Below, one piece after another: positions 691-9,393 of a stretch of 12,937 nucleotides of DNA. The stretch spans positions 1-12,937 of the forward strand of contig JAMDBP010000017.1 in the NCBI GenBank assembly GCA_023487825.1. The letters are read 5' to 3'. Source of the stretch: Candidatus Martarchaeota archaeon (GTDB lineage Archaea; Micrarchaeota; Micrarchaeia; Micrarchaeales; CABMGC01). Numbering within the stretch: the stretch's first letter is position 1; every line of letters starts with the position of its first letter. The translations under genes were made by a program, and so were the position numbers. The notes under the pieces are model-generated. The model made no database searches. It was not told the DNA's origin and worked only from the letters and a program-made list of their open reading frames with translations.

Positions 691-763
691 CTAAGCACCA
701 TTTGTCCTCAGCCGATATGGACTTCATCATATTTCAGCAGTTACTCTTGTCTTCACAGGACAG

Positions 764-6728: not shown

Positions 6729-7607
6729 TCACTCGCGCTTCAGAGTTGAAATATGCTTCCCTTTCTTGTGGGACTTGTCCTTTTTCATCTCTTTCTCTGC
6801 GCTTTTAAACATTGCGTCCCTTATCATGCCTACATCTCCGCGAGATAGTTTAATCTCGTGCTCAACTGTGGGCTTTTCCATATAGGTTATCCTTGAACCT
6901 TTGTCCTCATCAACAGGCATGGATCTTTTTGGAGCCATTACGCATGCTCCTATTGAACAGTTAACACCGTTTGCAACCAGAGCATCTTCAAGCCTGCGCA
7001 GTATACTCTTTGCACTTGAATCGACTTCTTTTGAATTGCCATCAGGTATGTTTGCAATTATTATGAATTCGTCTCCGCCCCACCTGTACCCTGCTTCTAA
7101 TTTGTACTTTGAATCGTTGACTCTTGTCGTCTCTTTTATTACTTCTGCAGTTTTGCGGAGCAGCCTGTTACCTGCCTCGTAACTATCAATATCATTGGTC
7201 TTCTTGAGGTCATTAAGGTCTATTATTATAATGGCAAGGTTAAGATCGTACCTCATTGCATTGCCAAACGCCTCGGGAAAACCCTTATTGTTGAACAACT
7301 CAACTCTTCCCAGACCAGTTAGCCCGTCAAGTGTGAATCTTTCCAGAGCCTCATTTTTCTTCTTGAGCTCGTCATTTTCAAGGGATATCCTTGATGCAAC
7401 TGCTAGTGCCTTAATCAATTCGTGTTTATCATTTTCCAGTTTCTTGACTTTTGCTTCCAAATCTGCATTCTTATCCTTTAAGAACTGTATTGTATGGCGC
7501 TCCACTGACATCGGTTGCCTAGCGTGGGCTCCGTGCATGTTTGTTGGTCTTGGTGTCTGCTCCGTAATCTTTTCGCCATTATCATGGTCATGTCTCTTCG
7601 TTGTCAT
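6729..7607 (-). CDS. GGDEF-domain protein (putative diguanylate cyclase) with N-terminal coiled coil
   Basis: The protein has 292 residues and no membrane segment, so it is predicted cytoplasmic. Residues 1-35 are polar and disorder-prone, and 38-92 form a charged coiled coil that could dimerise it. The catalytic domain spans about 93-228: D-G-L-T-G-L at 94-99, the metal-ligand region I-I-I-D-L-N-D-L-K-K-T-N-D at 127-139, and R-W-G-G-D-E-F at 175-181. These are intact active-site motifs for making cyclic di-GMP from GTP. The usual inhibitory RxxD site would end 6 residues before GGDEF; here that stretch is Y-K-L-E, so product inhibition at that site is not expected. A basic Lys-rich tail (274-291) might bind nucleic acid or membrane. 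No EAL or HD-GYP partner or PilZ receptor is visible. Diguanylate cyclases are uncommon in archaea. GAGG lies upstream of the ATG at a longer spacing than elsewhere. Confidence 0.88.
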   Translation of the reverse strand: MTTKRHDHDNGEKITEQTPRPTNMHGAHARQPMSVERHTIQFLKDKNADLEAKVKKLENDKHELIKALAVASRISLENDELKKKNEALERFTLDGLTGLGRVELFNNKGFPEAFGNAMRYDLNLAIIIIDLNDLKKTNDIDSYEAGNRLLRKTAEVIKETTRVNDSKYKLEAGYRWGGDEFIIIANIPDGNSKEVDSSAKSILRRLEDALVANGVNCSIGACVMAPKRSMPVDEDKGSRITYMEKPTVEHEIKLSRGDVGMIRDAMFKSAEKEMKKDKSHKKGKHISTLKRE

Positions 7608-7654
7608 TTTAACAATTCCTCTACTTTATCTTTTTTAGTGTAATCCTGTGATTT

Positions 7655-7760
7655 CCTTAAGCTTTGTCGCCCGCTTAAGAAGAAAGCAGATGAGATGGAG
7701 TGGTGGGTTGGTTGGGGATACAAGAACAAGGCCCTTTCGGGCTTAATCCATCTCATCCAG
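7655..7760 (-). ncRNA. Candidate structured RNA or long structured leader of the GGDEF gene
   Basis: Read on the minus strand, an 11-bp perfect stem pairs 7757-7747 with 7699-7689. Two G-U pairs extend it at the base only in this orientation. Inside is a hairpin with stem GCCC/GGGC and a GAAA (GNRA) loop (7742-7731), then a C-rich unpaired stretch. A second hairpin follows: CTTAAGC/GCTTAAG with a 10-nt loop (7679-7656). GNRA loops and G-U wobbles favour the minus strand as the transcribed one. A TATA-like element at 7783-7790 predicts initiation near 7760, right at the stem base. The GGDEF start is about 50 nt after the second hairpin, so the element may be its 5' leader or a separate small RNA. 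It does not match the cyclic di-GMP riboswitch, SRP or RNase P RNA patterns I know. Confidence 0.5.
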
Positions 7761-7782
7761 CTGAAATAGTTATGCCTTACCT

Positions 7783-7790
7783 ATTATATA
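7783..7790 (-). promoter_or_regulatory. Putative TATA box for the structured RNA / GGDEF transcript
   Basis: On the minus strand TATATAAT lies about 26 nt before position 7760, the 5' base of the predicted stem. A weaker A-rich element near 7634-7642 might instead give a short-leader GGDEF transcript. Confidence 0.4.
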
Positions 7791-7847: not shown

Positions 7848-7940
7848 TTTATGCTTTTACGCTATGAATAGTATGTTATTATAAATATAGTTACCCATCT
7901 AAAATTGAGTATTACGTATAGAATCAATAAAAGCGTTACT

Positions 7941-7980: not shown

Positions 7981-9393
7981 CTGCCCAAGAAACTGCCCGA
8001 GAACATAGAAAGAGCCGTTGAACGCATACGCAAGGAGTATGGCCATTATGTTGAGGCGAAGATGCTGCGTGGAAGGTACAGGCTCTTCCAGGCTACAAGC
8101 GTGTATAACAAAGAGAAGGGCAGATCAGATAAGGTTACGAAGTATCTGGGATGGTTCACAGATGATGGAATGTTCATACCTGCTGAGCACAGGGATGAAC
8201 GTACAAAAGAACTAAAGGAGATGGAAAAAGAGAACAGGGAGAGGCTTTCGGCTCTGCAGGATTCCCAGAAGGAAGCTGAGACGAAAATAGTAGATGAAGG
8301 CATAAGGAAAAGGGAGACGGAAAGGCATGAGCGTGATATACTCAGGGCGTTAAGTATGGATGCGAGGAAGACGATACCTGAGCTTGTAAAGATAACTGGG
8401 ATAAAAGAGACCACTGTGGCATATCATCTGAGAAACCTTGAGAGAAGATATGATATGGAATATGTGCTGGAGATAGACATAGAGAAGTTTGGATATGTAG
8501 ATTATGTCGCTTTTGGAAAGTTCCTCAATAAAAAGCCTGTGCTTAATCAGATGAAGGAGGAGCTTGAGAAGTATCCTTATGTTCAGGCAGCCATGATAAC
8601 AAAAGGCGAATATGACATAGTAGTTCTTCTTGTTGCAGAATCTAACAGCAATGCAAGAGGCGCACTGTACGACTTCACACGCGAGGTTTTATCCTCTTAT
8701 GATATTGAATGGACAATGTCTCCGGCGTATTTCAGCGGATTGGGTTTCATACCGCTTAGAAAGGAGTTCTTCGAGGTATTGAAGGAGAAGGTATGGAAGA
8801 GAACAAGGGAGAAGCCGAGACCAGAGCATGACCAGATAACAGAAGTGGAATATAATGTATTGATGGCAATGAACAAGAATGCTGCTGCGGACTTCGCCTC
8901 TATCGACAGGGAGATTCATACAGAAAGGGGAAGATCCAATTACGCTTATCACAGGCTTATCGACAGGGGAATAATAAAGAGGGCTACTGTGAATATGAGG
9001 AACCTGTCATCAAGGTTTGATGCGCTGTTCATACTGAATATTATAAATATAGATAGCTGGTTAAAGGGCAGAGAGAGATTTATGCTTGATCTCATAAAAG
9101 AGAATGACCTGCAGGTTGACACCTACTCGTTCGCATGCGATATAATGTCCCCGAAAGGAGTCTTGCTGATGGCACATGTATTCAAAGATCAGAACCCGGA
9201 GGCAATTGCAGAACGACTTATCAAAGATACAGGAGGCGCCAGGATATATGAGATAGTAGTAACGGACATAATAGTAGGTTCTGTTAACAGCAGATTTTCT
9301 GATAAGATAAAGACAAGGCAGTATGAGATACTTGTCTCTCATTACAATTATAATCCTGAAAAACTAAAGGAAATGATAAATGGAAACAGATAA
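7981..9393 (+). CDS. Tandem Lrp/AsnC-like transcriptional regulator with an extra N-terminal domain (CTG start proposed)
   Basis: From CTG 7981 the protein has 470 residues. Residues 1-70 form a basic, beta-rich-looking domain ending in T-K-Y-L-G-x-x-x-x-D-G, reminiscent of the N-terminus of some IS4/IS1634-type transposases. Residues 71-115 are a charged helix. A winged helix-turn-helix of Lrp type follows (about 117-157: E-R-D-I-L-R-A-L...T-V-A-Y-H-L-R-N-L), then a RAM-like alpha/beta ligand module (about 168-225). A second, more divergent HTH (286-336) and RAM-like module (345-435) repeat the plan. No ATG, GTG or TTG is in frame between the upstream stop (7951) and ATG 8062, yet the 27 codons before 8062 read as protein. 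GGTG sits exactly 5 nt before CTG 7981. If CTG is not used, the start is ATG 8062. It likely binds DNA as a dimer and senses a small ligand; targets are unknown. Confidence 0.8.
   Translation: MPKKLPENIERAVERIRKEYGHYVEAKMLRGRYRLFQATSVYNKEKGRSDKVTKYLGWFTDDGMFIPAEHRDERTKELKEMEKENRERLSALQDSQKEAETKIVDEGIRKRETERHERDILRALSMDARKTIPELVKITGIKETTVAYHLRNLERRYDMEYVLEIDIEKFGYVDYVAFGKFLNKKPVLNQMKEELEKYPYVQAAMITKGEYDIVVLLVAESNSNARGALYDFTREVLSSYDIEWTMSPAYFSGLGFIPLRKEFFEVLKEKVWKRTREKPRPEHDQITEVEYNVLMAMNKNAAADFASIDREIHTERGRSNYAYHRLIDRGIIKRATVNMRNLSSRFDALFILNIINIDSWLKGRERFMLDLIKENDLQVDTYSFACDIMSPKGVLLMAHVFKDQNPEAIAERLIKDTGGARIYEIVVTDIIVGSVNSRFSDKIKTRQYEILVSHYNYNPEKLKEMINGNR

Follow-up and report, generated by a model that had tools for sequence, protein, structure and literature searches.

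A candidate small RNA gene, usually beside a dual-Lrp regulator, in Micrarchaeota

What lies ahead of the GGDEF gene of this Micrarchaeota genome, and does it serve that gene? The window, that is, the whole 12,937-nt stretch of DNA analysed here, is one contig (G000:C23) of a genome of 646,820 bases in 24 contigs that is 78.68% complete. At 7655-7760 a sequence-only reading had proposed a structured element on the minus strand, either a small RNA or a leader or riboswitch controlling the GGDEF gene. The element itself is confirmed. Its 11-bp stem, G-U extensions, GNRA hairpin, C-rich strand and 7-bp hairpin can all be read in the sequence, and the conservation of orthologs, the extra copies and a strand-blind dyad test place it beyond chance. 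Based on sequence comparison, the minus strand of 7676-7758 very likely encodes a structured RNA. We consider it rather probable that this is an autonomous small RNA gene, usually found with a dual-Lrp regulator, that acts via a CCCAA-rich tract. It is treated here as one of a class of putative RNAs that adjoin dual-Lrp regulators across this micrarchaeotal order.

Fold, strand and promoter of the predicted RNA

The predicted small RNA is about 83 nt long from the stem base to the U-rich tail (7676-7758, minus strand), as judged from its fold, ortholog conservation and a covariance model (R1, see below). Its closing stem, P1, consists of a 5' arm TGGATGAGATGGA (7747-7759) and a 3' arm TCCATCTCATCTG (7687-7699). 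The core of these arms, GATGAGATGGA (7757-7747) and TCCATCTCATC (7699-7689), shows perfect complementarity over 11 bp on the minus strand, and the two pairs outside the core are G.U and U.G, which pair on the minus strand only. P1 encloses a small hairpin on the 5' side, here the internal GNRA hairpin GCCC-GAAA-GGGC (7731-7742, minus strand), and a C/A-rich tract on the 3' side, TCCCCAACCAACCCACC (7702-7718, minus strand), which is predicted to be single-stranded. A U-rich tail (7676-7688, minus strand) follows P1 and could be an archaeal U-tract terminator; it is present in 8/8 genus copies, mostly interrupted. The second 7-bp hairpin, CTTAAGC/GCTTAAG (7656-7679, minus strand), is 3' of the RNA and was recognisable by eye in four of five orthologs, with a different hairpin in that of G005.

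The minus strand of 7640-7770 folds with -37.4 kcal/mol (z -2.86), and only 1 of 200 dinucleotide shuffles was as good. The fold of the plus strand (7640-7790) is unremarkable (z -0.30; 79 of 200 shuffles as good). For the RNA alone the z scores are -3.26 in the window, -4.91 for the G005 ortholog and -5.27, -3.86 and -6.62 for three paralogous copies. A covariance-model search with Rfam 15 gave no match at 7655-7760 at E up to 1, including the c-di-GMP riboswitch, in agreement with the original view that the element does not resemble one. Rfam likewise had no match (E up to 0.5) at the RNA in 10 related loci. No guide sRNA was recognised at 7655-7760, either as a match to an Rfam box C/D or H/ACA family or, for the boxes, by eye.

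A TATA-like octamer, TATATAAT (7783-7790, minus strand), is located 32 nt ahead of the stem base, in line with the sequence-only reading. On the RNA strand, all eight genus copies have such an octamer at a distance of 27-38 nt upstream; on the other strand, 0/8 have one at 20-59 nt upstream. The geometry recurs in other genera, where a TATA is found 26-36 nt upstream of 13 of 20 dyads on the RNA strand versus 3 of 20 on the other. This fixed spacing on the RNA strand argues for a promoter that belongs to the putative RNA itself. The stem mismatches in the genus comprise three G-U and no A-C on the RNA strand (an unbiased count), and those in other genera seven G-U and four A-C. In the pooled counts (G-U 10, A-C 4, other kinds 7), the excess of G-U over A-C favours an RNA of this strand, in a suggestive way only. 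As a possible sign of a discrete 3' end, a U-rich stretch follows P1 in the genus, and a hairpin with a U-rich run occurs at several loci of the second family described below; such signals are not general elsewhere.

Copies and neighbouring genes in the window's genus

The window's own genome holds a second copy of the RNA, likewise divergent from a paralog of the regulator. Orthologs of the window RNA occur in G001, G002, G004 and G005, and further paralogous copies in G002:C46 and G004:C26. The covariance model R1 was built from the eight genus copies and, applied with strict filters to 164 genomes of the order, recovered the same eight only (E up to 0.01), spread over five of the six genus genomes. 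By R1 there is no copy in G003, which is 73% complete. Three further R1 matches, with E 0.14 to 6.4, were left uncounted. The RNA is missing at four other genus loci that have the regulator and readable upstream DNA.

Mean pairwise identity across the five orthologous loci is highest in the stem-loop (7758-7689), at 98%, compared with 86% in the U-rich tail, 80% in the TATA region, 76% in the second hairpin, 72% in the regulator promoter and leader, 68% in the remaining leader, 65% between the promoters and 53% in the first 75 nt of the GGDEF gene. The three paralogous copies retain the fold, with the internal hairpin swapped for other hairpins (ACCA/TGGT, GCCA/TGGT). In the alignment of all eight copies, the sequence of the C/A tract is similar across otherwise different copies, and its variants UCCCCAACCAACCC, UUUCCCAACCCAACCC and UUUCCCAACCAACCC are preserved at the sequence level.

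P1 is paired in 99% of cells across the eight copies, with two pairs changed on both sides and two on one side, so compensatory changes of the kind that the sequence-only reading requires in homologous loci do exist. Over the whole structure, three pairs changed on both sides, compared with 1.0 in shuffles (16 of 500 had as many), and the covariation score is 0.147 versus 0.088 in shuffles (0/500) and no more than 0.118 when slid. Further pair types are not more numerous than in shuffles (8 versus 7.6, 286/500). Covariation within the genus is limited, to two P1 pairs only. Pairing of helices 2 and 3 reaches only 78% and 68% of cells, as MAFFT does not correctly align the internal hairpins of the two genus types.

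In all eight copies the RNA has one neighbour that does not change, a divergent dual-Lrp regulator gene that starts about 198-224 nt away. In the window it spans 7981-9393 (plus strand; 470 codons read from CTG) and encodes an N-terminal domain, a long helix and the wHTH-RAM unit twice. The second of these units is weak by sequence search and present in the predicted model (pLDDT 85.6). A Foldseek search with this model gave the double-Lrp siroheme decarboxylase NirDL and Lrp proteins as best matches, NirDL being the closest match to the dual wHTH-RAM fold. There is no in-frame ATG before 8062. By eye, the conserved frame begins ahead of any ATG in the genus copies, and the aligned starts are CTG, GTG, TTG or ATC; the start codon is therefore unusual or unclear. 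A regulator tree was computed from the eight genus regulators with the RNA, three without it and three outgroups, leaving out a fourth regulator without the RNA that is a fragment. The three RNA-less regulators group together (91/91) within the half of the tree to which the paralogous copies belong, and thus one loss is enough there.

The gene on the other side, co-directional with the RNA and 3' of it in all eight copies, is of two kinds. Only at the five orthologous loci is the RNA followed by a GGDEF protein gene (6729-7607, minus strand; PF00990, E 6.7e-14, in the window), the four other homologs at the same place matching the window protein with E 6e-73 to 6e-122. The three paralogous loci instead have a stand-alone gene for an 85-aa Lrp/AsnC ligand-binding-like (RAM) protein. 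One of these reaches 22.1 bits with PF01037, under the cut-off of 25, and their mutual identities are 78%, 36% and 38%. The association with GGDEF seems incidental, and a GGDEF riboswitch was rejected as the main reading because copies of the RNA lack a GGDEF gene. The GGDEF motif of the window protein is apparently intact, and the motif is present in each of the five orthologs. For comparison, the archaeal GGDEF domains recorded as of 2018 in the accessible part of one account were one from Methanocella and an inactivated one in Micrarchaeum (PMC5847659).

Between the two divergent promoters there is a conserved box, TACCCAT (7892-7898, plus strand; ATGGGTA on the minus strand), which comparison suggests as a candidate operator of the regulator. 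Of 12 genus loci, 7 have ATGGGTA at -81 to -84 with respect to the regulator, where 0.2 would be expected, and in other genera 7 of 63 loci have it on either strand (0.8 expected). TACCCAT resembles the C/A tract of the RNA, a resemblance that may be due to chance.

A second RNA family and similar elements in other genera

An ortholog group of the regulator led to an RNA in genus g10, which combines the tract ACCCAACAUACCCAAUCCCAA with two hairpins, CUGUUUU/AAAACAG and a GC-rich one, and in several loci a U-rich run comes after the latter. The 5' CACGC of this RNA may also pair with GCGUG in the second hairpin and thereby form a closing stem like the P1 of the window, and the detector described below picks this CACGC/GCGUG stem in five g10 loci. 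A model built from seven g10 RNAs (R2) finds nine g10 genomes, all with an identical 21-nt tract, two members in g25, one in g17 and weaker matches. The g25 and g17 members were outside the training set, share most of the tract, and are divergent from regulator genes (E 4e-94 to 5e-107). A g51 locus, L208, is an uncertain member, with an initial E of 0.0075 and no regulator found near it. Its score with the model R3 is not independent, as R3 was built with L208, and weak R3 matches (E 0.009-0.044) were unused.

Covariation in this second family is thin and rests mostly on the uncertain L208. The alignment A6 covers 13 loci (L207 and L209 were dropped), and an alignment with weak matches and a reverse-strand fragment (A5) was excluded. 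With L208 included, 7 of 15 pairs show both-sided changes and the score is 0.264 versus 0.109 in shuffles. Among the twelve loci that remain without it, one pair changed on both sides, from G-C to A-U, in the three non-g10 loci; the membership of L208 thus matters. These twelve pair in 96.8% of cells. Their score is 0.120, against 0.091 for shuffles (1 of 500 as high) and no more than 0.072 when slid, with pairs changed on both sides no more frequent than in shuffles (338/500). Within g10 alone covariation is nil because the RNA hardly varies.

The neighbours of this family change. At the seven g10 loci with the regulator, the next gene encodes Nop5 in four (at L177 called from the N-terminus only) and a class II tRNA synthetase in one, and is on the opposite strand in two (L172, L179), where it encodes a glycosyltransferase or an alpha/beta hydrolase. 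G077 and G079 retain the RNA with no regulator found in 1.5 kb upstream or in the available downstream DNA. R2 thus depends neither on one particular downstream gene nor on the regulator, and the C/A tract is retained despite the changed downstream gene. Persistence of the putative RNA through changes of its neighbours is therefore seen in R2 on both sides; in the window's family, sequence comparison shows it for the downstream gene only, the regulator being constant. Separately, L209 (1584-1501, minus strand, in G079:C23) has a different hairpin followed by ACCCAACAAACCCAATCCCAAC, a near-identical tract, and no regulator was found nearby.

R1 and R2/R3 do not find each other's family, and a DNA search of the 164 genomes with the G058 RNA returned itself and two short matches judged to be chance, with no relative elsewhere. 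Any common descent of the window RNA and the others is therefore based on place, promoter and layout.

The regulator family is widespread, with at least one match (E up to 1e-60) in 97 of 164 genomes of the order and up to nine in one genome; full-length homologs in other genera mostly have 27-36% identity. The regions upstream of these genes often contain a TATA, a G-rich 5' arm, a loop with a C/A-rich 3' part and a C-rich 3' arm. We examined 63 such regions, hand-picked among the regulator matches listed and including near-copies; owing to a partial match, at least two of them (L046, L066) start within the gene. The control was 14 regions of short Lrp-type paralogs, begun at the match and not at a mapped gene start. 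At a fixed score, the RNA strand has a stem with a TATA in 35% of the 63 regions, compared with 8% for the other strand, 6% for shuffles and 0/14 controls. Perfect dyads, sought blind to strand, are present in 20 of 63 regions, with arms that differ between genera, and in 2 of 14 controls, one of which has a TATA.

A detector that combines TATA, stem and C/A tract picks 38 of the 63 on the RNA strand versus 3 on the other, against a mean of 8.1 (max 10, ten rounds) or 6.0 (max 13, twenty rounds) in dinucleotide shuffles. Without near-copies it picks 34 of 57 versus 3 (shuffles 6.5), and in the genus set 8 of 12 versus 3 (shuffles 1.2); none of the 14 short paralogs was picked. The stem is at -165 to -260 in 36 of the 38 picks, and two lie outside this usual place. 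Since the detector was tuned after viewing many of the 63 regions, these figures support the class and not each member. A later-fetched set comprised 21 of 28 regions, leaving aside six repeats of counted regulators and one with only 208 nt upstream. The detector picked 12 of these 21 (other strand 2, shuffles 2.6), six of the 12 being g10 loci seen before. Without those six, it picked 6 of 15 versus 1 on the other strand (shuffle mean 1.7), and this later test alone is only suggestive because the best of twenty shuffle rounds also reached 6. The C/A tract alone is a poor marker, found in 43 of 63 regions on the RNA strand and also in 34 of 63 on the other.

The gene after the candidate RNA of G039 is a RAM gene, and that after its likely ortholog in G163 is of the TnpB type. 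By eye, tiny recurrent proteins are encoded 3' of the RNA-like elements at L042, L044, L051, L065, L077, L082 and L083, some CxxC...HxxxxC zinc-finger-like and others of a 'RPVKxVxDGxxSW'-like type.

Possible mode of action and alternative readings

In the reading that we prefer, an autonomous small RNA, transcription would start at the stem base and end in the U-tract, and the RNA would act through its tract of CCCAA/AACCC units. This tract is most likely a docking site, which would either sequester an RNA-binding protein or seed-pair with G-rich mRNA leaders. The divergent dual-Lrp regulator may control the RNA, probably via the ATGGGTA box between the two promoters. Some transcripts in the window's genus may continue into the GGDEF gene, which would not be the reason for the RNA.

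The main alternative is a 5' leader, attenuator- or riboswitch-like, that controls the co-directional gene, GGDEF in the window and RAM elsewhere. We regard it as unlikely. Such a gene does follow the RNA in 8/8 genus copies, of 37 other-genus loci scanned, 18 have a stand-alone RAM gene on the RNA strand and none has one on the opposite strand, and by eye there is no clear second promoter ahead of the GGDEF gene. However, the downstream genes are unrelated between copies (GGDEF in five and RAM-like in three; Nop5 and a tRNA synthetase in R2), the next gene is on the opposite strand in two of the seven R2 loci with a regulator, and the RNA is followed by a U-rich tract in the window's genus. 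Neither the genus nor R2 has a same-strand downstream gene of constant function. From the original pair of proposals the small RNA fits best, and the GGDEF-specific leader or riboswitch is not supported, given the three paralogous loci without GGDEF and the swapped or reversed downstream genes of R2.

It is very improbable that the inverted repeat is a DNA element, namely an operator of the two-headed Lrp regulator or a plus-strand G-quadruplex. Perfect dyads adjoin the regulator at many loci with arms that vary between genera, and the plus strand reads GGTGGGTTGGTTGGGG, which is G-rich. This reading is opposed by the mismatch counts given above (suggestive only), the one-sided TATA geometry, the better operator candidate in the ATGGGTA box and the R2 RNAs that persist in two genomes without an adjoining regulator. 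Scarcely credible, finally, is a small coding mRNA that would use the G-rich 5' arm as its ribosome binding site and start at the stem's AUG (7756). By eye, many other-genus candidates do have an AUG after the G-rich arm, and the five pre-indel substitutions between the paralogs L082 and L142 fall on third positions of one frame, but the frame after the AUG differs between window-RNA orthologs through an indel and stops after two codons in G004:C26, the L049/L120 paralogs differ at codon positions about 4/7/6 (by eye), and the tract is identical over 21 nt in nine g10 genomes.

Returning to an autonomous small RNA, targets were sought through complementarity. A search for a trans target with GGGTTGGTTGGG in five genus genomes (at most one mismatch) returned the RNA loci and scattered single matches, and the 20-nt complement of the g10 tract (at most three mismatches, four genomes) found only the RNA itself. 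We rejected a trans target through long complementarity, as the genomes searched yielded no complementary partner for the tract. For antisense action on the leader of the cognate regulator, the pairing is weak at best. Over 35 of the 41 RNAs, with near-copies removed, the cognate leader had a mean residual of -0.87 kcal/mol (t-like -2.18) relative to other regulator leaders, and the effect was largest for a few RNAs.

Archaeal trans-acting sRNAs, such as those of Methanosarcina, mask ribosome binding sites. Like these, the window RNA is short and intergenic, has its own predicted promoter, and contains a C-rich region, predicted to be unpaired, that might pair with G-rich leaders. Unlike these, it has a tract for which no target was found and which is repetitive (CCCAA units) and nearly invariant in R2, and RNAs of this type usually adjoin one regulator family. 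Bacterial sponge RNAs of the CsrB/RsmZ type display a repeated short motif, unpaired, in a small structured RNA. The repeated motif in unpaired positions here similarly suggests multivalent protein docking; in contrast to CsrB/RsmZ, the motif is C/A-rich and not GGA, the repeats are far fewer, the RNA is archaeal and the docking is a candidate function only. With c-di-GMP riboswitches the window RNA shares a position upstream of a GGDEF gene; it differs from them in the Rfam result and in copies that adjoin non-GGDEF genes. The same kind of evidence underlies the motifs of a comparative-genomics screen whose table, in the part available, contains a Pseudomon-GGDEF candidate and a few archaeal motifs, with no Micrarchaeota motif seen there (PMC2864571). 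Among the matches listed, the open-access literature held no description of regulatory RNAs of Micrarchaeota.

More tentatively, many dual-Lrp regulators of the order could each have their own divergent RNA, with the (CCCAA)n-like tract as a docking site for one partner. The regulator-RNA pairs would then make up a network of switches under RNA control, in genomes no larger than about 1.2 Mb. A shared docking site is suggested because the stem frame changes fast and the (CCCAA)n-like tract recurs. The same tentative proposal has as its candidate partner an RNA-binding protein or possibly the regulator itself (its candidate operator, TACCCAT, is similar to the tract). Similar-looking RNAs beside the same type of regulator in many relatives may thus be a first sign of shared RNA-based control. 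If many regulators carry such an RNA, RNA-based control in host-dependent archaea would become open to concrete tests, and searches could draw on two covariance models and the conserved tract. Attention also shifts from a GGDEF riboswitch, which is not favoured by the data, to the Lrp regulators.

Two further features were observed at the start of the window. The segment 1-690 (minus strand) encodes an exosortase-like membrane protein (PF09721, 24.1 bits, below the cut-off of 25.7), and 706-760 (minus strand) matches the box C/D sRNA sR14 (RF01145) with 38.3 bits against a gathering score of 38.
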